Assembly (NCBI GenBank): GCA_021018815.1
Contig: JAITYX010000054.1
Location: 2,790,001-2,854,000, forward strand
Source: Talinum fruticosum
Lineage: Eukaryota > Streptophyta > Magnoliopsida > Caryophyllales > Talinaceae
Direction of reading: 5' to 3'
Length of the DNA stretch: 64,000 nt
Shown: positions 10,551 through 56,304 of the stretch, one piece after another
How positions within the stretch are numbered: the first letter of the stretch is position 1
Layout of the letters: every line of letters starts with the position of its first letter
Notes under the pieces: generated by a model
The model's input: only the letters and a program-made list of their open reading frames with translations
Database searches by the model: none
What the model was told of the DNA's origin: nothing
Program-made: the position numbers and the translations under genes

Positions 10551-11097
10551 TTATTTGAGTTATTGCATGAATTATTCTACTATGATTGATTGTTATATGC
10601 TTAAGTAAATAACAAATGGATGAGTTGACTCAAAATGAGACTAAGCTATGAGTTATAAATTTTCCGAGTGTGTTACGAGCCAAACTCAAATTTTTAGCAA
10701 AATGGACATTAAAATTTTAGGATCATCTCTAGATAAATGGAGAATCTTAGAAATGTTTTCGAAAACTCTTTCTTCTGTCTCTACGTGTCACGCGAACGAT
10801 CAGCGAGAACTAGCCATTGGAAGAAAGTCTGTTGGAGAAACTAGCCGTTATGCTGCTGAGAGAGACAATGGTTTGATAACCGCTGCTTAGTAACCGAGTC
10901 GGAAAGTTGGTTGGAAGCCTTTTCTCATTATAAATAACAACTGCTTCACTTTCTTTCTACTACTTATTGCCTACTCTCTCGCTCTCTTTGTTGTCAATGT
11001 TCATTACGTCTCGCACTCACTCTTTCTCTCTAATTCTCGATCTTCCGTGTTCTCTACTCTTTCTTTCCTTTCTCTTAAACACTCGTACTCTATGAAT
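10551..11097 (+). promoter_or_regulatory. A: pol-ORF3 spacer with TATA-like box (10929-10937)
   Basis: Non-coding between the pol stop and the ORF3 start. TATAAATAA at 10929-10937 is followed by a CT-rich leader, and the first ATG of ORF3 lies about 160 bp downstream. The same arrangement recurs in J, K, D and E, which argues for function in the ancestor. Core-promoter role is inferred. Confidence 0.55.
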
Positions 11098-12640
11098 ATG
11101 CATAAGAGAGAATCTGCTTGTGGAAGGCGGTTTGGCCACCAAGAAGGCCGGAACCAAGTCCACTCGACCTAAGGCTGCACAAGGCAAAGGAAAAGGGCTC
11201 GCCTTAGAAGACTCAAAGCGTAATGTCACCCAACACTTCATTACGGACGATAAATTCTTCCCAAAAACATCCTTCTCCTAGTTGAGACATATCCTCAAAA
11301 CTGGTCTATACACCTATCTTTGTTTATGTGAGTATATTTACCAAGACCTTGTGTCTAAGTTCTATACTAACATGAAGGTAAGCAACAACATTATTTCTTC
11401 TATTGTTCAAGGTAAGACCGTTCGAATCAATCTCACTTTACTTCACAAAACTTTTCAATGTGAATTCCCTCTTTCTCAACTCCAATCCAATTCCTTTCAC
11501 TGAAATCTCTAATGACTTCTTTGAAAAATATGCTAAAAAACCTCCTCGAGTCCGGAAAGAACTTTTACGTGACTCGGATGAGCTCGAAGCCAAGCTTCGT
11601 GTTTCATTTTGATGAGGACATTCTTCTCTTAGTACTCGTCTAAGGAGAACCTTAACTTTAAAGTTTTGAAGGTTCTCTATGACATTCTCGAGGGCTACGA
11701 AGCGGAACTTTTTCATTTATCTTGGAGTAGATAGCCTCTGTTCCTTCGACACTAAGAAGACTTCATATCCTTTCGAGCTCTTCTCATTGTTGTTTTGAAT
11801 CGGTTTGGGGTCCGTCTACCTTCTGACCCAAACTCTATCTTGGAACTTGCCATTTGTCTTGGCAGGAGTGAGCTTATTGCTCTTGGATACTAGGAAGTCA
11901 TACCTCATGTCCGGGTTCGGTCGTCCGAGTTACCATCCTCTCCTTCTCCACCTCGGACTCGGACTACTCAAGAGGTCCTACTCCTAACTCGCTGGACCTT
12001 CTACTTCTTTGCCTGCCCCTTCGTTGAGCTTCTTGATAAGGTGGCTAACAAACTTGCTTTTCTAGCTATAGAGTTGAAATCAACTCTAAGCTCTTTCTAG
12101 GCTTTCATCCCAACTCTAACTCGATGCAAAGGCAGGCTCGGACTCAGCTCAAGTAGAGTCGGGATCTAATTGCTGAGCTCAAGAAGGTGATCAAGCAACA
12201 ACGTGATCAAATGCGAGCGCCTCCAAGAGAGACGATCAAAGGTCGCCACGGACATAGAATCGTCCGAGCATGAATCATAAGATGCCAAAGAAGCGAGTAG
12301 AGGAGGGACAAGGAGAGGCTGAAGGAGGAGAAAAAGAAAGAGAAAAGGAGAATGTTGTTGTCCAACACTGGGGACCAAGGTAACAAATAAGCTAAAGTGA
12401 TCTCTTCGATCACACTCGAGTGCCTTAGAAGAGGCTGGTGAAGTTGGCCGGTCTAAGGCCCCTGCCTGAGAACCTCGGCCAGCAGCAATCTTTGAGGAAG
12501 AAGAAGAAGAGGAAGATCTCACTCTGGCTCAAAGAACCCATAGCCCTCCATTACCAGATTTACCTATTCTAACGCCTGACTCACGCAGCTAGTTCCACTC
12601 AAGCATACAGGCGCGAGACGCACAACTCGATCTTCAACCT
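11098..12640 (+). pseudogene. ORF3 of A (envelope-position ORF), degraded
   Basis: Aligned by eye to ORF3 of J, K, D and E: a basic ATKKxGTK-like segment, HFIT-x-DDKFF-like block, a YxYLCLCEYIYQDLV-like block, an EFPL-x-Q-LQSNSFH-like block, and a C-terminal acidic and Lys/Glu-rich tail (about 12180-12530). The reading frame shifts several times, beginning within the first 20 codons. No function is known to me; the middle resembles the plant domain described as 'putative plant transposon protein'. The end is approximate. Confidence 0.6.
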
Positions 12641-19917: not shown

Positions 19918-19918
19918 A

Positions 19919-20379: not shown

Positions 20380-21996
20380 TGATGTCCGGACAAAAAAAAA
20401 ACAAAAGAAAAGAAATCGGGATGGGGGTAATGGGGGTGCGGTGTGAGCTGAGGAGGACGAGCGGGCGGTGCGGTGGTGCTGGTAAGCTTGGGAGGACGTT
20501 AAAGAGCGGGGTGCCAGCACTGGGATCTCTGGTAGCGGCTCGGCTCCGAGTGGTTCACCGAGAACTAAGTCATCCGGAGGCTCATCCTCTTAGAAGATCA
20601 AGGAGGGGGTGCTACTTCGGCTTGACCGCGTGGACCGCCCAACGTCCGCAGGGTCTTCGACCCACTCGGACTGCATGTCCGAGCTAATAAGTTCAGAGTT
20701 GAGGAACTGCAGCACCTTGTCCCTCGGCTTCCTCCTTCTTCTCTCATTCTTCCTTCTTTTCTTCTTCCTTCTCTTCCTTCTTTTTTCCTCCTTCTCCTTA
20801 AAAAGAGTTGCTTCACCGCAGACTTCCACTTCTTCTTCCGCCTCTCCCAAGGGAGACTTGGCGAGGGCTTGAGGACTCCTCGGAGGTATCTAAGCTCTCT
20901 AGGTCGGGAGTAGCCTTGGTTCGCCTTTCTTGGAGGAGCTCAAGTTGCTCTTGTTGCTCCTTGACCGGGCTCTTCATTTCGAGGAGCAAGTCCCGATGCT
21001 CCCGAATCCGAGATTGGACTGTCTTACGGTTGATGACCATATTCGAAGGACGGTTTTGTAGGAGCGAAAGGTTTCCCAAATTTCTACGAACACAAAGGTG
21101 AGCTTGTCTATCGTGGCTGTAGACAAGGCGATAGTGGCCTGGGAAGAGGACTTGAGGTGGAAGCACCGCCGGGTGGAGGAGGGAGAGACACTTGAGTCCG
21201 AGGAGGGGGTGAAGGGGGCCTCGGTTCGACCCGTGGAACCAAACACTAGGCTTGGTTTCCTGGCGAGAAGTTCCTTCCTGCCAACAACGATGGCAGCCTC
21301 GGACACTTGCATTTGGAGTCCGAGGGGAGGGAACCTTAAACCGCTTGAAAACCACGGTTAAAAGGGCTCGAACGGAAGAGGAGTGGTTTTTTATTGAGTC
21401 GGCACAATGACCATCCGCTCGATAACGGTTGGGAAGAGGTCTACATCGCAACCCTCAAGGATATCAAACAAAGCTTTGAGATGATGAGAGAAGAAAGTTA
21501 TCATTAAAAGGAAACAGAGAAGTCCGGCCTCGGTCTTCATTTGAGTCACCGAGAAATTCTTTCATGACTCGGGGGCTTTCTTGGCGTATTTTTCAAAGAA
21601 CTCATCCACAATCTCATTGAAAGGGATAAGATTGTAGTTGAGAAAGAGAGAGGAAACTTTGAAAAGATGAAGGAGGAGGGAAAGGTTGATTTGCACAACG
21701 GTGTTGTGAACTCTAGAGGAGAGTACTCTCTCGGAGCAAGCATAGATTAGAGTAGAACTTCGGCAATGAGTTACGGGTATATAAACTCACCGAAGTAAAG
21801 GAAGTTGTAAACTCTAGTGGTTTTGATATGATTCAACCATGGAAAGGATGTGGTTGGGAAAAAACTTGTCATCTAACGTGAGGTGTTGGGTGACGAAGAT
21901 TTTGGGAGGGATAGAAGTGCCCTCTTTGGTTTGCTTGGTTCTAGGGTTCTTGGTTGCAAACCCTAGAAAATCTTGGGCTGAACATCTTTTAGGCAT
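20380..21996 (-). pseudogene. ORF3 of K (envelope-position ORF)
   Basis: ATG at 21996 opens MPKRCSAQDFLGFATKNPRT, then the VTQHLTLDDKFFP block. After a frameshift the conserved middle follows (ALLTVVFKRFKVP at about 21350, with GRKELLARKPS near 21260), then a helical charged segment (NRKTVQSRIREHRDLLLEMK, about 21040-20960) and a Lys/Arg/Glu-rich tail. The middle resembles the domain named 'putative plant transposon protein' in plant annotations. I see no signal peptide and no clear membrane span, so an envelope glycoprotein is not supported. The basic start suggests nuclear targeting (inference). The end is approximate. Confidence 0.7.
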
Positions 21997-22559
21997 GGCT
22001 GAAGTTTTTGAGGTGAAAGAGAGTGAACTCGAAAGAAAGAGTGAGAGAGAGAGAGTAAGAGAGTAATGAAGGCTTTGAATACGAGAGTAAGTAAGCGAGA
22101 GATTAGGTTAGTAGAGAGTAAAGTAGTGAAATGAAGGTGAAGGGATGCTATTTATAGCAAAAGGAATGTCCTTCGAGTATTTGGTCTAACCTAAACCCGC
22201 AACGGTCGCCTCAAATAGGTGTGACGTTTTTGCTCTCCAACGGTTAGAATTCTAGTGTCTTTCTTCCAACGGCTAGTTCACTTATCGATGCACGCCGTAG
22301 AGAGCGAGAAAAGAGAAATTTTAAAAGAAAATTTTGAAATTCTCCACTAATCTAGAGATGATTTTAGAAGTTTGAAATCCATTTTTCTCAAAAATTGAGT
22401 CCGACTCGAGTATGGTTTCGAGTGACTCGGAAAGGCCAAAGATATAATAACTCCTTGCTCGGTCTCACTGGGTCAACTTAACCAATTGTTATTAAGACAA
22501 AGAAAGGAAACATATAACACATAATCATGCAAGACAATTTCACTATGAAAATCACATAA
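21997..22559 (-). promoter_or_regulatory. K: pol-ORF3 spacer with TATA box (22148-22156)
   Basis: Minus strand TATAAATAG at 22148-22156, with GCATCCCTTCACC after it as in J, a pyrimidine-rich leader, and the ORF3 ATG 152 bp downstream. This is a plant-type core promoter layout; activity is inferred. Confidence 0.65.
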
Positions 22560-25500: not shown

Positions 25501-25850
25501 TTACCTCTTGACCCTTGTCACATAATTGAGAGATGTTGAGTAGATTGTACTTTAATCCCTTGATAAGATAGATTGGCCTAACCAGGTTATCTCCTTTCCC
25601 AATCTTGCCTATCCCAACTATCTTGCCCTTACTTGTCATCTCCAAAAGTGACTTTGCCTCCTTTGTAATTTTACAACTTAAAAAGAGTCTTGAATCTCCT
25701 AACATGTGGCATGAGCATCCACTATCTAAGTACTAATGACCTTTTGTCTCTTCGAGTTACTTGTAAGTCGAAACACACTAACCCTTCTCACTTCCTCTAA
25801 CGAACCCAAGTAACTCCCTTTACTCGTGGTTTTTTTTCGAGGAAGAAGAC
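22560..25850 (-). pseudogene. pol: Pol of K: protease, integrase, RT, RNase H
   Basis: Minus strand order: protease with YLDSGCSCHM (about 25720, catalytic DSG present), ISQLCDKGQEV, GAG-pre-integrase zinc region (LGH-x-SMHT, about 25330), integrase with the VDDYSRFTWVCF block (about 25080) and HGREF (about 24900), the C-terminal KPNISYFKPFGCKCY (about 24620), RT with IYVDDIIFG (about 23490) and MMGDLNFFLDLQI, RNase H ending LGMINA-TGA at 22560. A tandem copy of an 18-codon piece (FLKHKNE-x-FKEFS, about 24960-25060) adds residues within integrase. Several frameshifts and stops: non-functional. This polyprotein would carry out cleavage, reverse transcription and integration. Confidence 0.92.
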
Positions 25851-27540
25851 TCTTGGGAACCCAGATTTGGTTAACTTTGGGTTTGGTTTGATTCCGAGTC
25901 TTCCTTTAAAAAACTAAGTCTCGTGTTTCTTTCTTTTGAAAATATTTTCTTTTATAAACCGGTGGAGAAGCTTTTCTCCTGTAAGCTGTTGCAGGCTCGA
26001 GTCCTCCTTTAATTTTTATGAATAGGACCATGGTCGGCCTTCCCGAACTTCATAGTTCTGGAATCCTTTTTGAAAAGACTTGAGTAGGAATTAGATTCCT
26101 CCTCTTCGTTAAAACCAAGTCCTTCTTTCCTGAAGGAGACACATTGAGAGCCTAAAAGCATGTCAAGGTTTTCTAACCTTGAGTTAAATTTCAAAACCAG
26201 CTTTTGAGAGTCATTGAGCTTTCTTTTCAAATGCTTATTTTCTCTTCTGCGTGCTCGGACTCCGTCTCATTTGCTTGAGTACTAGTCTTGAGTTCTTTCG
26301 GAGTTAGTCTCGGTTTTCCAATTCATTTTTCAAACCATTGCTCTCGAAGTAAGAAACTCAAGTTATTCTTTGAGCCGAGAAGAATCGGAATTGGACTTTT
26401 CTTCCAAAGTATAAATATATTTAGCCAAATCAACTTTGGAGAACATGAGAAAGTATTCAATTACCTCATGAGGATTTGTCTCCTCATTGTCCGAGTTATC
26501 AGAATCTAATTCGATTCGACTTACGAGTCTATTAGTGCCATTGGACACTTTAAGTCATCAAAATCTTCATCCTTTTCATATGAGTCTTCATCACTCCATG
26601 TGGCCATCATAGCCTTCATCTTCTTTCTCTCCCTCTTTCTCCTTGGACAGTCTTTGACTATGTGATCTTTACTTGCCACATTCAAAGCAACCAGAATTCT
26701 TAGTTAAAGATAACATTGAAGGAGAGGAGTATTTACCTTTTCTGTCCTTCTTATCTTTCTTTTAGAACTCTTCCGTTGGCCTCTTCATCATTCTTTTGAA
26801 GCCTCGAGCAATGAGTGCCATGGGGTCTTCTTCCGAGTCCGAGGAACTTAGATTTTCTCCTGTACTTTCGAGGATTTCAACGCAATGTTCTTTCTAGTGC
26901 TAACCTTAGCATCCCCTTCTTCTAGATTGATTTCATGGGTAAGTAGCTTCCCAATCGGTTTGTCCGGCTTTACATCGGAGAGTTTGTGAGCTTCCTCAAT
27001 GGCTGTCACCTTGGGACCCAATCTTCTCTATTTGGTCGGCGTCTTAGAATTTTTCTGCACATTTATTCATAGGAAATCTTTCTACCTAGAGATTTGAGAT
27101 TGTTTGTAATCTTAGTGAAGCGTATAAACATCCGAGGGATGTTTTCTTCGGCTCCATCTTGAACAGCTCATATTTGTGAAGATATTAACTTATTTTCGCC
27201 TGTTTCACTTGGCTTGTTCCTCCATATGTGTTGACAAGAGAGTCCCACACATATTTAGCCGTGTCACGGCTGACACTCTGTTGTACTCTTACGAGCTGAT
27301 AGCACACAGTAGGATGTTTATCGCTTCGAAGTTCTTTCCGAACTTTTCCGACTCTTCATTGCAGTACTTCAACTTTGCTTTAGGCATTGGTCTTGTATCT
27401 TCCATCTTCATTGGAATGTAATTGCCTTCTTGTATGATGTTCCATTAGCTTCTTCCGAGTGCACAAAGTTTGATCCTTTGAACTTTGGTGGTTTCTTTGG
27501 AAGATCTTCCTTCATCAAACTCTTCGTTGTTCTAAGCTAT
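25851..27540 (-). pseudogene. gag: Gag of K
   Basis: Reads from 27540 on the minus strand; the expected start ATG is ATA. Recognisable blocks: NNEEFDEGR, the FKMEPKENIPRMFIRF-like block near 27150, the KEEFYKKDKKD region near 26770, a knuckle CFECGK...HIVKDC near 26690 interrupted by one extra base, then the acidic stretch and the leucine-rich region (LNDSQKLVLKFNSRLENLDM, about 26200) ending in GLGFNEEEES, which is typical of SIRE-type Gag. Broken by frameshifts. Confidence 0.85.
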
Positions 27541-27585
27541 CCGATCTTTAGACCTTTGGATTGTTAGATCCTTTACGAAAGGCTA

Positions 27586-27597
27586 GGCTCGATACTA
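27586..27597 (-). promoter_or_regulatory. Primer binding site of K
   Basis: Minus strand TAGTATCGAGCC, two bases from the 5' LTR; differs from the E and D site TGGTATCGAGCC by one base. Confidence 0.75.
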
Positions 27598-27599
27598 GT

Positions 27600-29089
27600 T
27601 GAAGGTCTTCTCTTTGAGAGTCTTAGTCACCCTAGAGGTAGGGGGTGAATAGGGTGATGAGGAAATTTTAACAAACTTAGAAGATTTAAGCTTGAAAAGA
27701 ATGAACAAGACAATCCGAGTCTAGATTGGACTCGGAAAAGGTGTAAACTTAGAGATACGTGGAAACCCTCCTAGGGCAGAAAACCGCGGACAGTGCTAGT
27801 CCAAGCACCAAGTCAAATCCACTATTTTGAATCCACAAAATACAATGGACTGACTCAACCAAAATTGCTCCCTTAGACAATTCCTTACGAGTTTTCCTAG
27901 ACTCATAAATTCCCTTATCCGATCTAGTACGTCCTAACTGAGGTAACCTTTACATCTAGGGACAAATGAGCTGAGTTAACCCTTACAGCTCAGTCAAGGG
28001 ACCTTACTCAGAAAGTAAGAAGAGTATGTTACTGATTACAAGACTTTACAACTCGGAAAGTATGAATTACAAGTCGGGAGTTGTAAATAGAAGATTGAAT
28101 ATAAAAACAATGACTTTTGCTTAAGTAATGTGTTTCAACAATAATTCCAACAATCTTCAAGTCTTGTGAGGTGGCTTATATTTATAGGTGACCAAGCAGA
28201 TTAGCCGTTGTGAATGATTTACGAACGAAGTCCTTCTTGACCCTTGTAACGGTTCTTCTAAGTTGCTTAAAAAAATTTCATTGAGATGTGAATGTTGTGC
28301 AATGGCTCTTGGCTCCTAAAGGTTCTCCAGTCAGCTGGTGATGTCCGAAAAGTAAGGTGGAAACCATCGTTGAGCTTAACATTGAAGTTTTCCAGCTTTG
28401 GAAACAGACAACCACGACACGGTGTCGAGCCTTGTTCGAAGTAGAAAAGCCTTGTACTGTTGGTGATTGACGAGCTTGAAGTCGGTTACTTTTGTAATTT
28501 AAAAAATGAGATAATCTCGTTTGGATAACCTACAATAGTAAACCACTTTGGTTCTCAAAGTATAAAATACTTTCGTCTAAGATTAGGCACATATAATAAT
28601 TTAATTAAGACAATTAAGTGCATAATTATCTTAGGCCTAGAAGAGTGGAATTTTCTTAGTCTAATATTCATTATACTCAAATTCCATCGGAATCTGTCCT
28701 AAGGAAGATCAAGTTATAAGAGTGAAAACATCATAGTATAGGTACTTGATCTAGACAAATAATTCTCAAACAAATAAACCGACTTAGAAAGATGATCAAC
28801 GAGTGTAATGCACTTTAATTTGAAATATGCAGTCGGAACTCGGATAAAAAGCGTTAGAGAGATTATTTGAACATATAATAGATCCGAGTGATATCCGAGT
28901 GACTCGAAACATCATTGTGAGAAGATAAATAAGAGTGTGTTTTACGAGTCGGTCGAAACGAATGAAAACTTATATAAGAGTTTCTATAACACTCGGAATG
29001 ACTTGTAATCAAAACTTAGGAGGGATGAGGTTTGTACATGAGTCTTTATGTAGTACTCGGAATGATCTAGTTTCGAGTCCGAGTCTTCA
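27600..29089 (-). repeat. 5' LTR of K (1490 bp)
   Basis: Plus-strand TGAAGGTCTTC...GAGTCTTCA. Co-linear with 18427-19917, differing by scattered substitutions. Its TATA region near 28170 is altered (minus strand TATAAATATAAG). Confidence 0.95.
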
Positions 29090-31458
29090 TGCTCTTCCTT
29101 AGAAAAGGACCAAAATAAAGAGAATTATTGCGTTAGTAAGTGGAAGTGAGAAGGATTTGTTTGTTTCTATTTTGCGGTGGCTGAGAAAAAGAAGGGTCAT
29201 CGGTACTTGGACAGGTGGATGCTCACACCACTTGTCGGGTGATTCAAGACTCTTTTCTAAGTTAGAAGATCCGAAAGGAGGCAAAGTCACATTTAGAGAC
29301 AATAATAAAGGCAAGATAGTAGGGATTCACAAGATTGGTGAAGGAAATAATTCGGTTAGTCCAGTCTACCTTGTCAAAGGGTGAAGTACAATCCGCTCAA
29401 CATCTCTCGGCTATGTGACAAAGGTCAAGAGGTAAGAATCACTCGGACCAATTGCTACATTTATAATTTAGTTACTTGAAGAGACTAAGCTCTCGGGTAT
29501 GAGGTCGGGTAACACTTATACTATCCCTCTCTCGGATTCAAGTAAAAATCTATCTTGCTTGAAAGCATCTTTGAATGATGATTCATGGACTTGGCATCGT
29601 ACACTAGGTCATATTAGCGTGCATACTATCAAGAAACTTGCATCTCATGGATTGGTTAGAGGATTACCTAACTATGCATTGAAGAAAGATAAAATCTACG
29701 ATGCATGTACGAAAGGAAAACAAGTCGGATCATCTTTCACACCACTCAAAACTATGTTTACATCCAAAGTACTTGAATTAGTTCATATGGATGTATGTGG
29801 TGAAATTCTGTGAAAAGCCTTGGAGGTAAATCATATGCTATTGTCATTGCTGATGATTTCTCACGATTTACAATGGGGTAAGAACTCGATCTTCTTTGCA
29901 TAATCTGTGTGCATTTTCTACATTCATATCATTAACGGAACCCAAAAATGCACTAGAGGCCCTAAATGAATCTGAATGGGTAGAGGCCATACAAGAAGAG
30001 CTTAATCAATTTGAAAGAAACCAAGTCCGGACTCGACCAAACTACCTTTTGGACCACCCAGTCATAGGAACTAATCGGGTCTTCAAGAACAAACTAGATG
30101 AGGAAGGGTTGGTAGTTAGAAATAAGGCTAGACTTTTTGCTCGGGGTTACAATCAAGAGGAAGGAATTAATTGTGGGGAAACCTTTGCACCTATTGCTAG
30201 GATTGAGGTAATCAGAATTTTGTTAGCATTTGCATCTAGAATGAATATTAAGCTATGTCACATGGATGTCAAATGTGCTTTTCTCAATGGTTTTATTCAA
30301 GAAGTTATGTTGAGCAATCCCCGAATTTGAAAACTCGGAATTTTCAAATCATGTTTTCAAATTGCAAAAGGCATTATATGGTCTTAAACAAGCTCCTCGA
30401 GCTTGGTATGAGAGACTTAGCAATTTCTTGGTTGAAAATGATTTCAAAAGAAGTCAGATTGACAAAACTCCTTTCACAAAAACCAAGGGGAATGATTTTC
30501 TTATCATTTAGATTTATGTTGATGACATCATTTTTGGAGCTACTAATGAAACTCTATGCCAAGAGTTTTCTAAATTAAAGAGACAGGAGTTCCAAATTAG
30601 TATGATGAGAGAACTCAATTTCTTTCTTGGTTTGTAAATAAAAAAAGATAAGGAGGGCATTTATATTCATCAATCTAAGTATACCAAGGAGTTATTGAAG
30701 AAGTACAAGCTACAAGATGTGAAGCATGCGAGCAACACCTATGAGTATCGGTTTGAAACTGGACTTAGATGAGAAAGGTAAAGTCTGTAGATCAAAAACT
30801 CTACAGAGGTATGATTGGATCTCTGTATCTCACATCAAGTAGGCCATATATCATGTTCATTGTCTTCCTTTTTACAAGATTTTAATCTAATCCAAATGAA
30901 TCACATCTCACTGCGGTGAAGAGAATTTTTAGATATCTTATAGGGACTCGGAATCTTGGTCTATGGTTCTCAAACGACTCGAGAACTAACTCTCACTTGG
31001 ATACTCTTATGCTGATTATCCTGGATACACAGTTGATAGAAAGAGCACATCAGTAGCATGCCAATTTCTAGGTCAATCCCTTATCTCTTGGCATTTAAAG
31101 AAACAGAACTTAGTTGCTCTATCAATTGCCGAGGCTGAGTACATTACAGCTGGAGCTTGCTGTGCTCAGCTTCTATAGATCAAACAACACTTGAAGGATC
31201 TTGGATTATCATTCACTTCCATCCCAATCAAGTGTGATAATTAGAGTGCAATCGGTATCACTAAAAATCCGGTTCGAGCACTCAAAGACAAAGCATATTG
31301 AGGTCGGGTATCATTTTCTTAGAGACCATTTTGTGAAAGACGATATTGAGCTTGAATTTATTCCTACTAAGTTTCAATTAGCTTATATTATTACTAAGCC
31401 TCTTAGTGAGGATCAATTTTACTTTATTAGGAATGAGCATCGCATGATTAATGCATAA
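29090..31458 (+). pseudogene. pol: J gag end and pol, with integrase deletion
   Basis: Continues J after K. Protease is degraded (WTGGCSHHLSGDSRLFSKLE near 29210; the catalytic Asp is gone). GAG-pre-integrase zinc region LGHISVHTIKKLASHGLVRG (29600). Integrase is cut short: right after DDFSRFT (29870) the sequence jumps to the hinge before RT (VRTRSSLHNLCAFSTF), losing about 0.9 kb including the rest of the catalytic core. RT is the best preserved part: PKNALEALNESEWVEAIQEE (29943), [13 protein letters not shown] (30256), IYVDDIIFGATNE (30510, preceded by a TAG), then RNase H to a TAA at 31458 (FIRNEHRMINA). Non-functional. Confidence 0.92.
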
Positions 31459-32036
31459 TTAAGTGATTTACTTGCCTGAATTATATTTGCATGATTATGC
31501 GTTATATATATCTTGATAACGAAGGGATCAACTAACTTAGAGTGAGACTAAGTTCTAAGTTATTAGTTTTTCTAAGTGTTCTTAGTCACTTAGAAAAGAT
31601 ACTTGAGTTAGGCGAGTTTATAAGCAAAATAGCCATCAAAATTACGAGGTCGATACTGTAGATAAATGGGAGAATGTCATAAATGTTTTCAAAAACTCTT
31701 TTTCTCTTTCTCTACCACGCATTTCAATAAGAAGAAAGTAGCCATTAGAAGAAAGTTGTTGGAATACTAGCCGTTAGAGTGCAGAACGACACAATGGTCT
31801 AAGAGCGTTGCTTGGTATTTGGGTCAGAATGAAGGTTAAAAGTCATTCTTTTTGCTATAAATAGCACCCCTTCACCTTCTTTTCTTCACTTTACCCACTG
31901 CTTACATACTCTCTTTGCTCTCGACTTCTCTACTTACTCTTGCATTCTCTCTCTCTCTTTCGAATTCTCAATTATCTTTGCGCTCATCTCTTTACTTTCT
32001 TTACTTTCTTCTTCTCTCTTTCTCCAATTTTTCATC
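31459..32036 (+). promoter_or_regulatory. J: pol-ORF3 spacer with TATA box (31856-31864)
   Basis: TATAAATAG at 31856-31864 followed by CACCCCTTCACCTTC and a long CT-rich leader; the ORF3 ATG is at 32037, 172-173 bp further on. There is no such box in front of gag apart from the one in the LTR. The pattern suggests that ORF3 has its own promoter (inference). Confidence 0.65.
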
Positions 32037-33586
32037 ATGCCAAAGGGAGGAACCGGTCAAGAAATGGGTTCGGCTACGAAGAAGGCTCGAACCAAAGCTA
32101 CTCAAGGAGATACTGTAGATCCTCCTAAACATTTCATTGCCCAACATCTAACATTGGACGACAAATTCTTCTCCTCTACTTCTTTTTCATGGTTGCACAA
32201 CGTCAATGATAATGGTGTGTACAACTACTTGGTCTTCTGTGAGTACATATATAACGAACTCGTTTATGAGTTCTATTCCAATATGACTTGTCTCTTAACG
32301 CGTCATATCTTCCGTTGTTCAAGAGAAGGTGGTTCGCATCAATCTCGCTCTTCTCCATTGACTCTTCAATGTCAAATCTCTCTTTCTCTACTCCAACCCC
32401 GTACCCTTCACGGAAATCACTGACGATTTCTTTGATAAGTACGCTAAAGAGGTGCCTGAGTCATACAAAAACTTCTCTCGTGACTCATATGAGGTCGAAG
32501 CAAGGTCGCTTTACTTCATCTTGATGAGAACTTTCTTTTCTCATCACTCTAACAAGGAGAATCCCAATTCTAAGATTCTCAAAGCTTTGTTTCACATTCT
32601 AGAGGGCTATGATGTACACCTCTTCCCAGCTATTCTCGAGCAAATAGCATCCGTGCCAGCTCACTCTAAGAAATCCATTCCTTTTCCTTTTGGAGCCCTT
32701 ATGACTCGCTGTCTTCAAGTAGTTCAAGGTCCCCATTCCTTCATACCCTAACACTTGCTCGGAAGGCGGCGATTGTGCGGGCGAAAAGAGCTATCAGTGT
32801 CTAGAATACTAGGAACTACGGCCTGGTGTTTGGGTTCACGGGTATGAGTTTTCACCTCCTCCTCCTCCTTAGAGTCCACCAATAACTCCACACTAGACTG
32901 TTGATCCATTAACTTCTCAACCTCCTCCTTCTGCTGCAGTGTTTACTTGAAATGGTAAACAAATTTGCTTCTTTGATTGAGGATTTCCAATCCACTATGA
33001 AAATCTTAAAATCTTTTATTCCCAATATAGTTACGCTCTAGAAAATCGCACGAGTCTCATATTCGGGAGAACCAAGAGTTGATGTCCGAGCTCAAAGGGA
33101 TTATCCAAGAACAGCATGATCAGATCCGCCTCCTTCAAGAGCATAGATCAAAAGCTGCTAAGGACTCAGAAACATCTAATACTTCTTAGGAGTCCTCCAG
33201 CTCAGCTAAGTCGGCTTCAATTGAAGTTGAAAAGGAAGTTATAGAAGCGAGATGAGGAAGAAGCCAAAGGTGAAGAAGGAAAAGTTGAGAAGAAGGAAGA
33301 AGAACAACAAGGAGAAGTGGTTGCTCAATCTAAGGGCTAAGGCGACAAAGAACTAGAACCGATCTCTTCGGATCATGTTTCGAGCGACTCAAAAGAGGTC
33401 GGCGATATAGGTCGATCAACCACCCCCATCTTAGAAGCACAGCCAGCGGTTGTCTTCGAGGAAGAAGAAAAGGCTGAGGATGATATTGCCTTGGTTCACA
33501 TAACCAAGACCGACCAGATTCCGACATCCCGGTTCCGCGGCCCCTTTGCTCATCTCGGTTAACGAAGTTGCTCCTACTTCTTAGTT
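32037..33586 (+). pseudogene. ORF3 of J (envelope-position ORF), best start
   Basis: ATG at 32037 opens MPKGGTGQEMGSATKKARTK, then PPKHFIAQHLTLDDKFF, SFSWLHNVNDNGVYNYLVF and CEYIYNELVYEFYSNM; the frame shifts just after (about 32290). The conserved middle resumes in another frame near 32400-32750 (EITDDFFDKYAKEVPESYKN, FPFGALMTRCLQVVQ), then a coiled-coil-like charged segment (about 33060-33180) and a Glu/Lys-rich tail. About 515 codons in total. The middle resembles the 'putative plant transposon protein' domain; the biochemical role is unknown. The KKARTK start is nuclear-signal-like. No membrane segment is evident. The 3' limit is uncertain. Confidence 0.7.
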
Positions 33587-34729: not shown

Positions 34730-34792
34730 ATGTCCTTTTCATCCGCATAATTTTGACGAAGAAGAGAAACGTGAGGCATAATAGGCACCATA
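34730..34792 (-). pseudogene. Ferritin fragment, part 2
   Basis: On the minus strand continues the ferritin frame across the solo LTR: after one copy of CCATA is removed, KKELSM joins VPIMPHVSLLRQNYADE without a frame change, matching the order VP-x-x-P-x-VSL-x-RQ-x-Y in plant ferritins. At 34730 the sequence passes into GTAATTTTT, a possible splice donor, after which no ferritin sequence is visible. This suggests that the captured piece is genomic exon 1 plus some intron. Confidence 0.75.
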
Positions 34793-36376
34793 TGAAGGTT
34801 TGCTCGGGAGAGTCCGAGTCACCCTAGTGGGGGGTGAATAGGGTGATGGAGGATTTTCTTAGAAATTCAAACTCTTTTGCCAAAGAAGAGATAGAAAGCA
34901 GTTACGAGTCCAAAGCTTAGTCGAAAAGTATGGACTCGTAAATGCTTGTAATGAGTACGAAGCAAATTAAGCTAAAGCTTTGAGGTCGTGTGAGTCTAGA
35001 ATGAACTCGGAAAGTAAACACTCGGAGATTACGTGGAAACCCTCCTAGGGCAGAAAACCACGAGACCGTGCTAGTCTAAGCACGAAGTCAAATCCACTAT
35101 TTTGAGTCCACAAAATACCGTACACTGACCGAACCTGAGTTGCTCCCTTAGACAACTCTTTACAAGTTTTCCTAGACTCGAAATTCCCTTATTTGATCTA
35201 GTACTTCCTAGCTGAGATAACCCTTAAAGTTAGGGACAACTAAGCTGAGTTCACCCTTACAGCTTAGTCAAGGGACCTTACTCATAAAGTAAGAAAGTGT
35301 TTGTAACTAAGTACAAGACCTTACAACTCGAAAGTAATGAATTACGAGTGGGAGTTGTAAGTAGAAGATTGAGCGTAAATACAATGCCTTTGCTCAAGTA
35401 CGTGTATTAACAATAGGTTCGGCAATCTTCAAGTCTTAAAAGTTGGCTTCTATTTATAGATGACCAAGCGAGTAGCCGTAATCTCAAACTTCTAACGGGA
35501 AGTCCTTTGTGACCGTTGATAATGGCTTTCTAAGTCACTCGGAAAGTATCCGTTGTGATATGAATGTTGGACAACGGTTTAATTCTCTTGGAAGTCCCAA
35601 AACCACTCGGCGGTGTCTTGAAGGATAAGGTAGAAACCACGGTTAAGCTTGGCGTTTCAATTTTCCAGATTTGGAAACAGGTAGCCTTGACACACGCTTA
35701 CGGGAATGAAACGAGAGAAGGTGAGAAGCCATGTCTGGCTGGTGATTTGACGTTTTGAAGCCGGTTACTTATGTATTTCGAAAAGTATATCCTCGTTTGA
35801 ATAACCTACAAAAGTAAATCAAATTTTAGTTCTCAAAGTATAAAGTACTTTGGTCCAAGATTAGACACGAGATAATAAAGTAATTAAGATGGTTAAGCAA
35901 CTAATTATCCGAGTCGAAAGCGAGTGGAAAATTCCGAGTCTAATATCCATGAAACTCAAAATTCCATCGACTTAGTCTAAGCGAAGAATCAAGTTACCTA
36001 AAGAATATCGAGTGAGATAACTTGATATAGAATAAGCGATAGAAGTACTGACTCCAACAAAATAGAACTCATATCATGAAGTCGGTTACGAGTGCGATAA
36101 ATCAAAATACTAGTCTATTCGAGCATGCGATATATCTAAGTGATGAGGGACTCGGAAGCTGCGTGAGACAAGCATATTTGTTTTACGAGTCACACAGAGA
36201 CAAGCAAGAATACGAGAAGTAAATGCTATATCACTTAGAAAAAATACTATATCACTCGGAAAAGTTTCTAAAGTACGAGAGAATGCCTTGGAATCAAAAC
36301 TCTATAAGTAAGAAATTGTTATACTCGATTCCTTCAATACAACTCGAAATGTGTTGAGCGAGTGTACGAGTCTTCA
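34793..36376 (-). mobile_element. Solo copia LTR inside the ferritin fragment (1584 bp)
   Basis: TGAAGGTTTGCTCGG...GAGTCTTCA on the plus strand, flanked by CCATA at 34788-34792 and 36377-36381. TATA box on the minus strand at 35450-35458. Same family as the E and D LTRs. No internal region; formed by recombination between two LTRs. Confidence 0.95.
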
Positions 36377-37339: not shown

Positions 37340-37351
37340 AAAAAGGGGAGA
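37340..37351 (+). promoter_or_regulatory. Polypurine tract of J
   Basis: AAAAAGGGGAGA directly before the 3' LTR; identical to that of A. Confidence 0.88.
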
Positions 37352-37352
37352 T

Positions 37353-38794
37353 TGAAGACTTAGGTATATCTCTCAATCTCTCTTAGGTTTTTATTCCAAG
37401 TCATTATGAGCTTTATAGAAACTAGTATCTAAGTTTTCATTACGTTACGATCGACTCGAAAGCACTTTATCGCATATCTCTTACTTGCTTTTCGACTCAC
37501 TCGGACATCACTTAGAACCATGGCATGTTTAAATAATTTCTCTAACACATTTACTTTGAGCACTGACTTTGTAATTCATGTTAAAATGAATTAAAGTGTT
37601 AATTCTTTATTCTAAGTAAGTTTATCCGGAGAATTATTTGAGTGGATCAAGTTCATGTATCCCGATATATTTTCTCTCTAACTTGATCATTTAAGGATTG
37701 ACTCAGGATAGAACCTGATCCTAATGGATATTAGACTTAGAAAATTCCATTCTTTTAGACTAAAGATAATTAAGCACTTAATTACTCCGATTTAATTATT
37801 ATCTTTGCCTAATGTTGGACCAAAGTGTTTTATACTTTGGGAACTAACATGGTTTGCTTTTGTAGGTTGTACAAACAAGTTTAATCTACTTTTCAATTAC
37901 AAAAGCAACCGACTTCTAACCGTTAAATACTAGCAGAAAAGAATTAGTTACTTCGGACAAGGCTCGGACACCGTGGCAAGGTTGTTTGTTTCCAAAGCCG
38001 AAAAACTCTAACTCTAGGTCTAACGATGGTTTCCACCTCGGTTTTCAATTGCCACCATTTGATTGGACCATCTTTTGGAGGCAAGAGCCATTGCACAACG
38101 TTCACATCCCAACGGATCATTTCTAAGTGACTTAGAATAGGCTGTTACAACGGCTAGTGAAGATTTTAGTCTAGAAACAAGGCGCAGCAGTCATTACGCT
38201 TGGATGCTTGATAAATAGAAGCCACTCCACAAGACTAGAATATGTCTAGAATTATCGCTGTGAACATATTGCCTCACACTTGCTTAGTGCATTCTTACTC
38301 AATCTTCTAATTACAACTCCTAATTTGTATTTCATATTTTCGAGTTATAAAGAAAGTCTTGTAATCGGTTACATTCTTTTCGTACTTTCTTTGTAAGTCC
38401 CTTTACTGAGCTGTAAGGGTTAACTCAACTCAATTGTCGCTAATTATAAAGGTTAACTCAGTCAGGAAGTACTAGATCGAGATAAGGGAACTTCGAGTCT
38501 AGGAAAATTCTTCAAGGAATTATTTAAGGGAGCAATTTTGGTTTGAGTGAGTCCTTTGTATTTTGTCAATTAAAAATAGTGGATTTGACTTGATGCTTAG
38601 ATTAGCATTATCTCGTGGTTTTCGGCCCCGGGAGGGTTTCCACTTACATCTGTGTATTTGTCTTTCCGAGTCCACTCTAGACTCGGAATCCGCTTTATTT
38701 AAGGGTTTGTTAAAAAGTGTTTAACTTTCTTCATCACCCTATTCACCCCTTCCCCCACTAGGGTGACTTAGACTCGTCCAAGAGCAAACCTTCA
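37353..38794 (+). repeat. 3' LTR of J (1442 bp)
   Basis: TGAAGACTTAGG...AACCTTCA, followed by TTTCA and H integrase sequence. Co-linear with 15576-17018. Confidence 0.92.
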
Positions 38795-40616: not shown

Positions 40617-42174
40617 TGAAGACTCGGACTTTACATCTCACCTCTCCGAGTTCTATCAAGGGAATCGGGTATAAGACTTTCTCACTTATAAAGTTTTGAT
40701 TCCAAGTTATTCCCGTGTCTTAGAAACTTTTCGAGTGATATGGTATTTTCTCTAAGTGTTATAGAAATTATCTCGTGCATTTATACATGACTTTGTATGA
40801 CTCGGAAAGCATATATGCTCTTATCATGTTTCACTTAGTTACGAGTCACTCAACACTAAGAAAGTATCGCATGATTCAAACACTATCTTTTCGCACTCTA
40901 ACTATGGTATCTTAGTTTGAATTCATGCTCGATCTAGATCAAGTTTATCTCCTCCGATATTCCTTAGTTAACTTGATTCTCTGTTAGGCTGACTTAGATT
41001 GAATTTTGAGTATCATGGATATTAGACTTAGAAAATTCCATTCCTTTTCGACCCGATCAATTGGTCACTTAATTATCTTAATCATATTATTATCCGTGTC
41101 TAATCTTGGACCAAAGTATTTTATACTTTGAGAACCAAATTGATTTACTTTTGTAGGTGATTCAAACGAGGCTATTCTAAATTTGAAATACAAAAGTAAG
41201 CGGCTTCAAAACGTCAAATCACCAGCGAGACAAAGCTTTTTCCACCTCCGACCTAGCCTTAAACACCGTGTCGGGGTTGTCCGTTTCCGAAATGGAAATC
41301 TGCAACACTAAGCTCAACGGTGGTTTCCACCTTACTTTTGAAGACACCGCCGGTGGTTTTAGGCACTTCCAAGGAAGTCAAGAGCCGTTGTCTAATGCTC
41401 ATATTTCAACGGATATTTTACGAGTGACTCGGAAAATCCTACACATCGGTCGTAAAGGAATTTCCAGTCGGAAGATGGACACAACGGCTAAGTCTGCTTG
41501 GTCATCTATAAATAGAAGCCAACTCTCAAGACTTGAAGATGGTCGAATCTATTGTTAATACACATACTTGATCAAAAGTCATTGTATTCATTCTCAATCT
41601 TCTACTTACAACTCCAATTTTGTAATTCATTATATTCCGAGTTGTAAGGTCTTGTAATCGATTACAAACACTCTCTTTCTTACTCTCTAAGTAAGGTCCC
41701 TTGACTGAGCTGTAAGGGTTAACTCGGCTCGGTTGTCCCTAGCTGTAAGGGTTATCTCGGCTAGGAAGTACTAGATCGAGATAAGGGAATTTATGAGTCT
41801 AGGAAAAACATGTAAGGAGTTGTCTAAGGGAGCAACTCGGGGTTGAATCAGTCTACTGTATTTTGTGGACTTGAAATAGTGGATTTGACTTCGTGCTTGG
41901 ATTAGCACGGTCCGTGGTTTTACGCCCAGGAGGGTTTCTACGTACTTTCGAGTTATTACTTTTGTGAGTCCATTCTAGACTCAAACAGTTTCGAATTACT
42001 GTTTAACTTGTTTCTTCAATTATCCGTGAATTCCGAGTTAGCTCATTTTCTAAGTTCATCTTTGACTCTCACTCTCCATAGAGTCATATCTATTTCAAAT
42101 TTCACGTAAGTTTCATCATCACCCTATTTTCTCCTCCTCTAGGGTGACTTAGCCTCTCCCCGAGCAAACCTTCA
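40617..42174 (+). repeat. 5' LTR of D (1558 bp)
   Basis: TGAAGACTCGG...AACCTTCA. TATA box TATAAATAG at 41507-41515 before AAGCCAACTCTC; transcription would start shortly downstream. Confidence 0.96.
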
Positions 42175-42176
42175 AT

Positions 42177-42188
42177 TGGTATCGAGCC
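42177..42188 (+). promoter_or_regulatory. Primer binding site of D
   Basis: TGGTATCGAGCC, two bases after the LTR; close to the initiator-Met tRNA complement. Confidence 0.85.
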
Positions 42189-42234
42189 TAGCCTTTCGGA
42201 AAAGGATCTAACCATCCAAATGTCTAAAGATCAA

Positions 42235-47256: not shown

Positions 47257-47891
47257 TTATGTGCTTTCTATGTGAAAACTTCTTTCCATGATTATGTGTT
47301 ATGTGTTTAGAATCCTTTAGTAACCATCGGTTCGGTTGACTTAGTGATACTGAGCCGATAGTTATTATTTGCTTCCAGTTTCGAGTCACTCGAAGCCGAG
47401 CTGAGTCGAACTCAGACGTTGAGAAAAATGGTCATCAATCTTCTTAAATCATCTCTAGATAAGTGGAGAATTTCAGAATTTATTTTCAAAATCTTTTTCT
47501 CTCTCTTGCGCGCCGTGATCATACGATTAGCCGTTGGAAGGCAACCGCTAGAATTCTAACCGTTGAAGGAGAGAACCGTCACACCGGTCTAAGGTGACTG
47601 TTGAAAGAGCTGAGTCGGAATGGATACTGAAGGATGCCTTTTTTTAAATAGCAACTATTCTCCTTCATTTCGTTACTTTACTTTTCACTTACTCTCTCTC
47701 TTGAAATCCAAACTTCGCGCACAAAGCTCTCGCGTCTACGGCGATTTCGGTTATTTCAAGTTTCGTGAAGATCATCTCAAGTAAGCTAAGCTGCTCTCAA
47801 CTCTTTCTTACTGCTCTTTTATTTTTACTCTCTTCGAATTCCTCTTCCCTCATCCTTCTCAAGCCTTCCTACTCTCTCTTTTTCTTCAAAA
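47257..47891 (+). promoter_or_regulatory. D: pol-ORF3 spacer with TATA-like box (47643-47651)
   Basis: TTTAAATAG at 47643-47651, in the place of TATAAATAG of J and K, followed by CTCCTTCATTTCGTTAC and a CT-rich leader; ORF3 begins about 245 bp on. The spacer is longer than in J and K, as in E. The weaker box may mark decay or a subfamily difference. Confidence 0.5.
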
Positions 47892-49507
47892 ATAACAAAA
47901 AGAGGTACTCACCGGACTTTCTTGGCTCTGCTACAAAGAAACCCCGAACTAAAAGCCAAGAAGGCCCTTCAAATTCTAAACCTATTGTCACCCCGCATCT
48001 TGCGTCTGGATGATAAGTTCTTCCCAACCACCAAATTTTCGTGGTTGCCTCACATTCAATCAACAGGGGTGTATAATTTTGTTTGTTTCGGTGAGTTCAT
48101 ATACCACTGAACTCCTATATGAGTTTTATACTCATTTCACCGGCTATGAAGGTGTTCTAACCTCCGGGGTTCGGAACATCATAGTTCGCATTAACACCTC
48201 TCTTCTCCATCGTCTGTTCAAGGTCTCTTCTCTCTTGTTAAACAGCAATCCAATTCCTTTCACTGAGGTCGCTGATGACTTCTTTGAAAAGTATGCAAAA
48301 GAGTTCCACTAGGTCACGCAAAAATTTCTCCGTGACTCGGTGAGGTCGAAGTACGTCTTACGTGCTTCTTGCTGATGAGAACCTTCTTCTCTCGGCACTC
48401 CAGTAGAGAGAACCCAAATTCCAAACACCTCAAAGCTCTCTTTGACATTCTCGAGGGCTACGAAGTAGACCTCTTTCCCTCCATCATTGAGTAAATGGCA
48501 GGTGTGCCAGCTCAACTCCAAAACAAGAAGAACACTCCTCTTCCTTTCGGTGCTCTTCTCACCCTTGTTTTCAAACAATTCAAAGTTCCTTTTCCCTCAT
48601 ATCCAAACGCTGTTTATGAGGCTGCCGTTGTTGTCGGCAAAAAGGAGCTTCGGGGTATGGGTACCGGAAGCCGAACACGGTATGCGGGTACATAGCTCGA
48701 GCCGAGGCCCTCTCGGACTCGGAAAGATGCCCCCTTTCTCTTCCTGCCCCACCTGGTGGTGCTTCCACCTCAAGTGCTTCTAAGTCTCTTACTTCCATTT
48801 TGTCCTCCACCTTCATGGACAAAATCAACTCTGTGTCCTTAGAATTCAAGGACATACTCCGGTCATTTAAGATTGTCCGTCGATCTATGACCATAAACCG
48901 AAAAATTGCCCGAGTCTTAAATCCGAGAGCAGCGAGAACCTGCTCATTGAGATGAAGGCCTTGGTGAAGGAGCGAGAGGAGCTGATAGAGCTCCTACAAG
49001 AGAGACTGTCCAAGGCGGCTCGGGACCAAGGCGACTCGGACACATCCGAAGAGTCCTCGAGCCCGGCCAAGACCTCCTCGAGATAGAGGCGAGGGGAAGA
49101 AGAAGATCAAGAAGAAGCAGGAGTCGAGGAACCTATGGCTAAGGCGGCTCCCTCCGGCCAAGGGGAGGAACAAAAGGAAGAACAAGGAGCAACAGGTGAG
49201 GGTACAAGTGCTCCTAAAGCTCACCTGGAAGTGCTCGGCTCGGACGGCGAGTCCGAGTGGGTCGGAAGACCTTGCTGCACAAGGACAATCAACGGCGGGT
49301 CAGCTCGAGCGGTCCCCTCCAGCTGCTGAGTTACAAGAGGAAGAACCTCTGGATCCCCTCGTTTTGGGTCGGCCGCTCGGAGCCGAGCCTCGCCGGAGAT
49401 CCCTGTCCTCCCTCCACCGCGCTCAAGCACATAGTCAAGATCCTATCGGCGCCGACGCTCCACTCGTCCTTCTTCTTCCACTCGAGACAAACCCATCCCC
49501 CTCTTAA
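47892..49507 (+). pseudogene. ORF3 of D (envelope-position ORF), start lost
   Basis: The position of the E start codon reads ATA (47892-47894), and one base is missing a few codons on. Recognisable blocks: PDFLGSATKKPRTKSQEGPS, then DDKFFPTTKFSWLPHIQSTG (about 48010), YNFVCFGEFIYH, SGVRNIIVRINTSLLHRLF (48156), EVADDFFEKYAKEF (48267), PFGALLTLVFKQFKVPFPSY (48547), NAVYEAAVVVGKKELRG, then a coiled-coil-like segment (about 48900-49020) and an acidic C-terminal tail ending LPLETNPSPS-TAA at 49507. Middle resembles the 'putative plant transposon protein' domain. No membrane span seen. Function unknown. Confidence 0.72.
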
Positions 49508-49949: not shown

Positions 49950-49950
49950 T

Positions 49951-54023: not shown

Positions 54024-55644
54024 TTAAGGAGGGGATAGGTTTGTCCGAGTTGAGGAGGAAGGACGAGTGGAGCGCCGGCGCGGATAAGATCTTGACGATG
54101 TGCTTGAGCGTGGCGGAGGGAGGACGAGGATCTTTGGGAAAGGCTCGGTTACGAGTGGCTGACCCGGAACTATTTCGTCCGAGGCTCGTCTTGAATGACT
54201 AGAGGGTGTGCTCGGAGTTGACCAGCTGCAGATTGTCCTTGTTCGGCAAGGTCTTCGACCCACTCGAGCTGTCATGCGAGTCGATCACTTCCGGTTGAGC
54301 TTTAGGAGCACTTGGACCCTCAGCTGTTGCTCCTTGTCCTTCTTGGTCTTCCTGGCCTTCGGCTCACCGAGGCTCGAAAAGAGCTGCATCGGCCGTAGGC
54401 TCTTACGCTTCTTCTTGTTCTTCTTCTTCACCCTCTCCTCTGTTTGAGAAGGACTTGGCGGGGCTCGAGGATTCCTCGAAGTGTCTTAGTCTTCTTGATC
54501 CTGAGCTGCTTTGGATCGTCTCTCCTAAAGAAGCTCGATCGGCTCCCTCTGCTCCTTCACCAGAGCCTTCATCTCGAGGAGCACGTCCTGTTACTCTAGG
54601 AGTTGAGATTGGACGGTTTTACGGTTGATGGTCATAGGTCGAAAGACGAGTCTTCAATGACTGGAGGAGGTCCTTGAGTTCCAAGGCCACGAGAGGACAT
54701 TTTGTCTATGAAAGTTATGGACAAAACGGAAGAGAGTGTTTTAGAAGCACTGAGGTGGAAGCACCACCAGGTGGAGCGAGGAAGCGAAATAGGGGCATCT
54801 TTACGAGTCCGAGGTGGAGAAGGTGGCCTCGGCTACGAGTTGTGAACCCGGACACCGGGTTCGGTTTCCTAGTATCTATACCCCAGAAGTTCCTTTTTCC
54901 CACTACAATGGCGGCCTCGAAGCTGCGGTCGGATCCGAGGGAAGAGGAACCTTGAATTGTTTGAGTATAAGGGTGAGAAGAGCACCGAAGGGAAGAGGGG
55001 TGTTCTTCTTGGTCCGAGTTTGAGCTGGCACAGCTACCATTTGCTCAATAATAGGAGGAAAGAGGTCTACTTTGTAGCCCTTTAGAATGTCAAAATGTTC
55101 TTTGAGGTGCTTAGAGTTGGGGTTCTCCTTACTAGAGTGCTTGCGAGAAAAAAGTTCTCATCGGCAAGAAACACGGAAGACGTGCTTCGACTTTAGGCTG
55201 AGTCACGAGAAAATTTTTGCGTGACCCGGGGAACTCTTTTGCATACTTTTCAAAGAAGTCATCAGCGACCTCATTGAAAGGAATAGGGTTGCTATTCAAG
55301 AAGAGGAAAGAGACCTTGAATAGACGATGGAGGAGGGAAGTAGTGATGCGAACAATTATGTTACGAACCCTGGAGGTGAGACTACCTTCGGAGCTGGAAA
55401 GATGAGTGTAAAACTCGAAACGAGTTCGAGGATAGATGAACTTGCTAAAGCAAAGAAAGTTATAAACCCGGTCGATTATATGTGAGGCAACCACGAAAAT
55501 TTGGTGGTTGGAAAGAATTTATCATCCAGGGCAAGGTCTTTGGGTAACAAGAGGTTTGGAATTTGAGGGGCCTTCTTGGCTCTTGGTGCGAGGTTTCTTA
55601 GTAGCATAACCAAGAAAGTCGGGGTGAGAACCTCTTTTCGACAT
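54024..55644 (-). pseudogene. ORF3 of E (envelope-position ORF)
   Basis: ATG at 55644 opens MSKRGSHPDFLGYATKKPRT, followed by GPSNSKPLVTQ, and after a frameshift IIDRVYNFLCFSKFIYPRTR (55480), SRVRNIIVRITTSLLHRLF (55380), EVADDFFEKYAKEFPGSRKN (55275). The frame shifts again into the valine-rich middle and the charged C-terminal half (about 54700-54300), ending near 54024 with a Ser/Arg/Thr-rich tail. Length about 1.62 kb, equal to D. Same domain assignment and same absence of membrane spans as in the other copies. This copy has the clearest intact start codon together with the KK-P-RTK motif. Confidence 0.72.
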
Positions 55645-56304
55645 TTTGGTGAGAAAGAGAGAGGATAAACTTTGAGAGAGAGAGTAGAAGCGAAGAAGAC
55701 TTTAAGAGAGTGAAGGATAAAAGAAAAAGGTAGAAGAGAAATGAGTTTGAGAGCGACGGAGCTTACTTGAGATGATCTTCACAAAGCTTGAGAGCACGGG
55801 GTGTCGCTTTAATCACGAGTGCTTGTTCACGAGGATTTGATTTCGAGAGAGACAGAGAGAGTTAGTACGCGAGGAGTAAAGTAAAGAAATGAAGGAGCAT
55901 AGGCGCTATTTAAGAAAATAAACGACCTTCGATATCCGTTCGACTCGGCTCTTTCAGCGAGTCACTTCGACCGGTGTGACGATTCTCTCCTAACGGTTAG
56001 AATTCTAGCGGTTTGTCTCTCAACGGCTAGTTATCTTATCAAGGCTCGTAGGAGAGAAAAAGAAAGAAAAAAATTTGAAAAAAATTCGAAATTCTCCACT
56101 TATCTAGAGATGATTTCAGAAGTTTGATGTCCATTTTCTCAGTCTAAGTCTGACTCGGCTCGGTTTACGAGTGACTCGAAGCTGGAAGCAAATAATAACT
56201 ATCGGCTCGAGTATCACTATGTCAACAAAACTAATGGTTATCAACGAATTGTAAACACATAACACATAATCATGCAATGAGATTTTCACATAGAAAGCAC
56301 ATAA
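55645..56304 (-). promoter_or_regulatory. E: pol-ORF3 spacer with TATA-like box (55906-55914)
   Basis: Minus strand CTTAAATAG at 55906-55914, then CGCCTATGCTCCTTC and a pyrimidine-rich leader; ORF3 starts about 260 bp downstream. Layout equals D. Confidence 0.5.

Follow-up and report, generated by a model that had tools for sequence, protein, structure and literature searches.

We analyzed a 64-kb window (64,000 nucleotides in all) of the 620-Mb Talinum fruticosum assembly GCA_021018815.1, on contig JAITYX010000054.1, and find it to be a nest of long terminal repeat (LTR) retrotransposons in which five copia elements, A, J, K, D, and E, carry, after RNase H/pol and ahead of the 3' LTR, a third coding region that is homologous among them. 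We call this region open reading frame 3 (ORF3), and it appears to be the third gene (eORF-3'F, "env-like") of the SIRE lineage of Ty1/copia retrotransposons. About 400 nt 3' of the pol stop codon we observe a box, CTATAAATAGC, which resembles the TATA box of the LTR promoter and is followed by a C/T-rich leader; both go beyond what an earlier note on this DNA had described. From these features we infer, as the reading that we favor on balance and consider probable, that ORF3 is a third SIRE gene with its own internal TATA promoter at this place. The promoter would give rise to a separate mRNA with a C/T-rich leader almost free of ATG, and the encoded protein would be an accessory factor with an intracellular role, nuclear or particle-associated, and not an envelope.

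The third coding region and its domain

The earlier note had reported a third ORF with a common block order in the five elements. The homology holds, since tblastn with K piece 32362-32748 recovers D (1e-30), E (1e-29), J (1e-28), and A (2e-23), while the label "ORF" is wrong because every window copy is broken. Counted from the start codon, the longest sense pieces between stops measure 76 aa in A, 129 in K, 172 in J, 213 in E, and 128 in D, and ORFs of at least 150 aa with an ATG, GTG, or TTG start number two in the entire window. The start codon of K lies exactly at 32037 on the plus strand, and its acidic-tail piece terminates at the stop codon at 33560-33562. The block order, too, can be read in the pieces, from a basic MPK..KK start through DDKFF, EFIY..EFY, a leucine-rich middle, and a charged helix to an acidic tail, with the C-terminal blocks of A not read separately.

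ORF3 was under purifying selection in the past, of the same order as that on pol, as follows from its codon-position bias and low ratio of nonsynonymous to synonymous substitution rates (dN/dS), and in agreement with the selection that the earlier note had implied. In nucleotide alignments of ten copy pairs, with both copies in the same assigned frame, differences at codon positions 1, 2, and 3 amount to 0.30, 0.25, and 0.51. Eight of the ten window pairs have finite dS and show a dN/dS of 0.20-0.32 for ORF3, and all ten pairs show 0.22-0.45 for pol; the high-scoring segment pairs underlying these ratios were selected by protein similarity, which biases dN/dS downward. Among natural open pieces elsewhere in the genome, the main group displays a median dN/dS of 0.15 (0.10-0.44; 27 of 28 pairs), and all ten natural pieces together give the same median (finite dS in 30 of 45 pairs), a constraint that holds at a median dS of 1.16.

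ORF3 could instead be a functionless captured sequence, decaying in every copy, with the box a relic from one recent source. The broken state of all five window copies fits this account, as does the description of SIRE eORFs as 19 groups with little mutual similarity (PMC6317226). Against it stand the constraint of the order seen in pol and the retention of box, spacing, and frame across diverged copies, and the breaks fit decay after insertion, the LTRs of E, J, and D having diverged by a Kimura two-parameter (K2P) distance of 0.075-0.101. We consider a functionless ORF3 very unlikely.

The middle of ORF3, previously likened to the "putative plant transposon protein" domain, is recognized as such by profile search with PF20167 (Transposase_32). 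Matches in the window are weak: two of ten pieces reach E≤1, scoring 20.1 and 17.1 bits where the cut-off is 45. All ten natural open pieces match the domain at E≤4.5e-4, three of them above the curated cut-off, with near-complete profile coverage (e.g., L028 residues 62-233 align with profile positions 7-177). A search of the genome, in which 150 of 1,639 first-look candidates were scored, yields at least 89 places at E≤1e-5, with 9 of the 89 above the curated cut-off. Copia reverse transcriptase (RT) or RNase H lies within the 1.5-kb flank at 24 of 30 PF20167 loci, the exceptions being L009, L010, L013, L015, L016, and L029. The genome counts for ORF3 given below are based on loci L009-L039 plus the window copies.

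The box and leader upstream of ORF3

Alignment of the five window copies upstream of ORF3 reveals a common TATAAATAGC-type box. With one mismatch allowed, TATAAATAGC occurs at 14 window places versus 4.6 expected, comprising seven LTR boxes (TATAAATAGA), four ORF3 leaders, and three others, with the leader of D more changed. The TATA motif of sirevirus LTRs is given as cTATAAATAg-type (PMC2829016). In the genome, TATAAATA is present within 900 nt upstream at 18 of 26 loci, versus 0.39 expected and a maximum of 3 in 200 shuffles; five of the 31 loci (L009, L010, L015, L016, and L026) had been excluded before this count as belonging to a second PF20167 group or having no leader. Across 24 rows selected for box presence, box columns are 97% identical versus 72% on each side. 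A profile search of 36 sequences using the flanks only recognizes both flanks in 27, of which 22 contain TATAAAT and the other five (L013, L019, L035, J, and D) have altered boxes. A copied LTR piece was rejected as the origin of the internal box, as self-BLAST of the window gives no leader-LTR match and the box flanks differ.

The position of the box is conserved as well: it lies 378-422 nt from the pol stop in 22 of 23 placeable copies and 325 nt in the remaining one, and this interval contains stops in each of the three frames. Stop-codon suppression of the SIRE1 type is rejected on these grounds. Box and ATG were both found by pattern in 20 of 36 sequences, separated by 160-291 nt (median, 248), and these 20 leaders contain 2 ATGs in 4,484 nt, compared to 54 in the 7,000 nt directly upstream of the box and 28.2 in mononucleotide shuffles (minimum, 14 of 500). 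The splice-acceptor trinucleotide YAG is depleted likewise, at 12 versus 73.7 in dinucleotide shuffles (minimum, 60 of 300); it is absent from 9 of 20 leaders and has no position common to them. TAG is also low in the leaders, and the other permutations of A, T, and G are not. An internal promoter fits the conserved box, the fixed spacing, and a leader low in ATG and YAG, and these same features speak against both stop suppression of the SIRE1 kind and a splice junction within the leader.

For the env-like genes of Athila and BAGY2, an LTR-initiated spliced mRNA has been predicted, and if ORF3 were expressed in this way, the leader would be a polypyrimidine tract and the box incidental. The C/T-rich composition of the leaders is consistent with this, ATHILA loci L042, L043, L044, L046, and L047 are also C/T-rich ahead of the ORF, predicted acceptors in BAGY2 and Athila are cited by PMC2829016, and an acceptor-like CAG precedes the ATG in two of our leaders. 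Nevertheless, an acceptor inside the leader is unlikely for most copies given the YAG counts, in a survey that covered the leader from box to ATG, and splicing leaves both the conserved box and the fixed spacing unexplained. We regard this explanation as unlikely.

Within this genome, the box appears to be confined to the main group of copia ORF3 loci, because neither the second PF20167 group, in the upstream stretch examined, nor the ATHILA loci, just ahead of the ORF, have such a box. The second, diverged group (L009, L011, L015, L016, and L026) has C/T-rich stretches upstream, and copia pol lies upstream of L011 and L026; L011 and L009 are approximately 28-33% identical to the main group. 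Upstream of L010 we find TTTAAATAG, and upstream of L016, TATAAATGA. A genome search with PF03078 (ATHILA) finds 92 places. TATAWAWA is absent from the 1,450 nt upstream of ATHILA loci L042, L044, L046, and L047 and scattered upstream of L040, L041, L043, and L045, with L043 and L045 showing an LTR-like TATAAATAGA far from the ORF; a box of the internal type just 5' of the ORF is observed in none of the eight loci.

The encoded protein and the weighing of its roles

The ORF3 protein would be roughly 500 residues long and, as read from the sequence, comprise a short basic N-terminus resembling a nuclear localization signal (NLS), the probably helical PF20167 domain, a charged and possibly coiled-coil helix, and an acidic stretch. 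KKPRTK is present near the start in 4 of 13 loci and [KR]K-P-x-TK in five more, the others differing or being shifted; we take this N-terminus to be NLS-like as a type of motif, which is not a prediction. The charged helix was found by pattern in six loci, and the stretch 3' of it varies from acidic (L025 and L028) through near neutral (others) to basic (L022, in the frame read). A protein database search with the natural N-terminal piece of L028 returned 606 candidates, none at E≤1e-3.

The location between pol and the 3' LTR would suit a genuine envelope or movement protein that is bound to the membrane, with a particle that exits the cell or passes plasmodesmata, and transmembrane and coiled-coil parts are common to Sirevirus ENV-like genes (PMC3414828). 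Two window pieces, starting at 21561 in E and at 32913 in K, reach a borderline Kyte-Doolittle maximum of 1.73 over 19 residues. In contrast, the maxima are only 1.12-1.53 in 9 of 10 natural pieces, the 1.93 of the tenth, L018, lies upstream of its start codon, and hydrophobic stretches directly upstream of the start fall inside the C/T-rich leader. In line with the earlier note, Kyte-Doolittle hydropathy gives no clear indication of a signal peptide or a membrane-spanning segment in the pieces, with no dedicated signal-peptide or membrane predictor run, and the basic start and acidic stretch look soluble. That note had held an envelope to be as likely as a nuclear or particle-associated protein; we find it the less likely of the two and give little credence to a membrane-bound role.

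Several observations nonetheless weigh against an internal promoter and an intracellular accessory protein. All five window copies of ORF3 are interrupted by stops and frameshifts. Depletion of ATG in the leaders is weak against dinucleotide shuffles (2 versus 7.8; minimum, 2 of 300), and the CAG in leaders L017 and E stands two bases 5' of the ATG. The flank profiles were derived from rows holding the box, and the copies are related to one another, so that the box and leader counts are not independent events. No TATAAATA is found in the upstream stretch examined for the second PF20167 group, and hence the box is not universal. Finally, a structure model of a K piece, aligned with seven other window pieces, is all-helical and too poor to use (predicted local distance difference test [pLDDT], 49; predicted template modeling score [pTM], 0.32).

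Elements of the window and related systems

The pol pieces of the window match RVT_2, rve, and Pol_BBD (Pfam). Elements E, J, and D have both LTRs, and A and K are partial or interrupted. At a rate of 1.3e-8 substitutions per site and year, the LTR divergences of E, J, and D correspond to insertion ages of about 3 to 4 million years. Judged by the signatures of the polypurine tract (PPT) and primer-binding site (PBS) rather than by an RT tree, all five ORF3 elements appear to belong to the SIRE lineage of Ty1/copia, as had been proposed from the sequence before. A near-sirevirus PPT-AT/TG junction is present at the LTR start in 5 of 5, with one mismatch to AGGGGGAGATTG in each and two in J, and junctions of the AGGGGGAGATTG type have 12 window matches versus 4.5 expected. 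In addition, at least one further PPT-like octamer (≤1 mismatch) lies 3' of ORF3 in every one of the five, a raw count without shuffle control; exact copies are seen in E and D only. Sireviruses typically have several PPTs in the linker, for the most part 3' of the ENV-like gene. Tested against the sirevirus PBS junction CA/ATTGG/TATCAGAGC, J and D show CAATTGGTATCGAGCC, which is short by one base, and E has more changes, whereas the LTR ending at about 17018 has a junction with one mismatch. An ungapped PBS-junction search of the window gives 1 match, which is also obtained in 37 of 100 shuffles.

Features of the ORF3 elements, in window coordinates
Feature	Position	Strand	Remarks
Element K, pol C-terminal end (RNase H tail)	31402..31458	+	stop codon 31456-31458
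Element K, box TATAAATAGC	31856..31865	+	397 nt 3' of pol stop
Element K, C/T-rich leader (proposed 5' untranslated region)	31866..32036	+	no upstream ATG, no YAG
Element K, ORF3	32037..33562	+	interrupted; fragments fall in three frames
Element K, open piece with C-terminal part of PF20167 domain	32362..32748	+	E=6.4e-4, 20.1 bits (cut-off 45)
Element K, PPT and 3' LTR start, AAGGGGAG-AT/TG	37343..37354	+	
Element A, box TATAAATAAC	10929..10938	+	
Element A, ORF3 remnant	11098..12528	+	start 11098; end approximate
Element E	18427-29089	-	both LTRs, matching 5-bp flanking repeats; LTR K2P 0.101
Element E, ORF3 remnant	20816..21996	-	start 21996; end approximate
Element E, box TATAAATAGC	22147..22156	-	
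Element J	~40617-51516	+	both LTRs, matching 5-bp flanking repeats; LTR K2P 0.075
Element J, altered box TTTAAATAGC	47643..47652	+	
Element J, ORF3 remnant	47892..49504	+	ATA at start position; end approximate
Element D	~52043-62426	-	both LTRs, matching 5-bp flanking repeats; LTR K2P 0.082
Element D, ORF3 remnant	54059..55644	-	start 55644; end approximate
Element D, altered box TTCTTAAATAGCG	55904..55916	-	

Between the ORF3 of K and its 3' LTR (37353 on) lies a minus-orientation LTR at 34790-36350, which resembles a later solo-LTR insertion. Elsewhere the window contains diverged tandem repeats at 685-1288 and 3416-4211, with approximately 70-78% identity among units by self-BLAST, and a 128-aa open piece at 2475-2858 on the minus strand that looks like a retrotransposon gag, a by-eye reading only. 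Scans of the window for tRNAs and Rfam families gave no matches.

With SIRE/Sirevirus (Maximus) elements, the elements described here have in common a Ty1/copia pol, a third ORF before the 3' LTR, the PPT-AT/TG junction, additional octamers, and a PBS junction that resembles, with changes, the tRNA-Met type. An extra ORF is reported in 74% of SIRE elements, falling into 19 groups without similarity (PMC6317226), and MASiVEdb describes these genes as of unknown origin, with mention of coiled-coil as well as transmembrane parts (PMC3414828). In soybean, the copia element SIRE1 likewise has a third ORF at the place of an envelope gene and relies on stop suppression (PMC2829016), an expression mode in which a single stop codon parts pol from ENV, whereas in K about 580 nt, containing stops in every frame, lie between the pol stop and the ORF3 start. 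An internal promoter for the ENV-like gene has been hypothesized, not identified; the repeated motifs and CpG islands that some elements have near ENV were offered in its support (PMC2829016). In the literature surveyed, in the parts available, we found no report that links the third ORF of SIRE elements to PF20167 or to a conserved TATA box. Roughly 40-60 nt 5' of the internal box, many of our copies (e.g., L014, L018, and L037) have a GGTCCGAGGTGACC-like inverted motif, and the LTR box of D has a CGGCTAAGCCG palindrome upstream; both are possible regulatory boxes akin to the repeated sirevirus motifs.

PF20167 has been reported in the 3' additional ORF (aORF) of a sunflower gypsy Athila element, together with a predicted NLS, and was called related to PF03078 (PMC11728184; SIRE is not mentioned in the part of this source available). 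Athila aORFs resemble ORF3 in their 3'-end location, in PF20167 (in sunflower), and in the C/T-rich stretch ahead of the ORF at the ATHILA loci of this genome. They differ in that the pol is gypsy there and copia here, the box is absent just before the ORF in the eight ATHILA loci, and the domain similarity is not significant: hhalign of PF20167 and PF03078 gives E values of 0.15 and 0.048 (probabilities, 0.4 and 1.1%). One block is aligned by both profile comparisons, and L040, one of four ATHILA ORFs, weakly matches PF20167 (E=0.012), by which Athila-SIRE domain homology is hinted at. A stretch resembling a gypsy integrase C-terminus is seen by eye upstream in 3 of 8 ATHILA loci (L042, L046, and L047), and the one upstream piece tested, that of L047, has no Pfam match. 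The ATHILA ORFs of these three loci share an upstream C/T-rich stretch, C-terminal HSEQASLRDYVHSE-type repeats, and a proline-run end.

Foamy viruses use a second TATA promoter, inside env, for an accessory gene. The proposed arrangement would work alike, with an accessory gene served by an additional TATA promoter in the interval from pol to the 3' LTR; the foamy virus promoter differs in lying within env, and the likeness is functional, with no sequence relation claimed. Going further, we put forward tentatively, as a rather unlikely extension, a two-promoter element in which the LTR would drive gag-pol and the internal TATA promoter a nuclear regulator, such as an antisilencing factor or transactivator, with SIRE and Athila having acquired a protein of the same fold at the same place.

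Expression and role of env-like genes in plant retrotransposons have been called unproven and controversial (PMC2829016; PMC3414828). Both the gene and the element analyzed here are of known kinds, to which our analysis adds a domain assignment and evidence in the sequence that suggests an internal promoter. PF20167 gives the SIRE third gene a recognizable domain, also reported for the sunflower gypsy 3' aORF, and a conserved box at a fixed distance followed by a leader poor in ATG and acceptors makes the internal-promoter hypothesis directly testable. If ORF3 does have its own promoter and encode a soluble protein, the label "plant endogenous retrovirus" would lose its main support, and ORF3 would become a candidate regulator of silencing or assembly.
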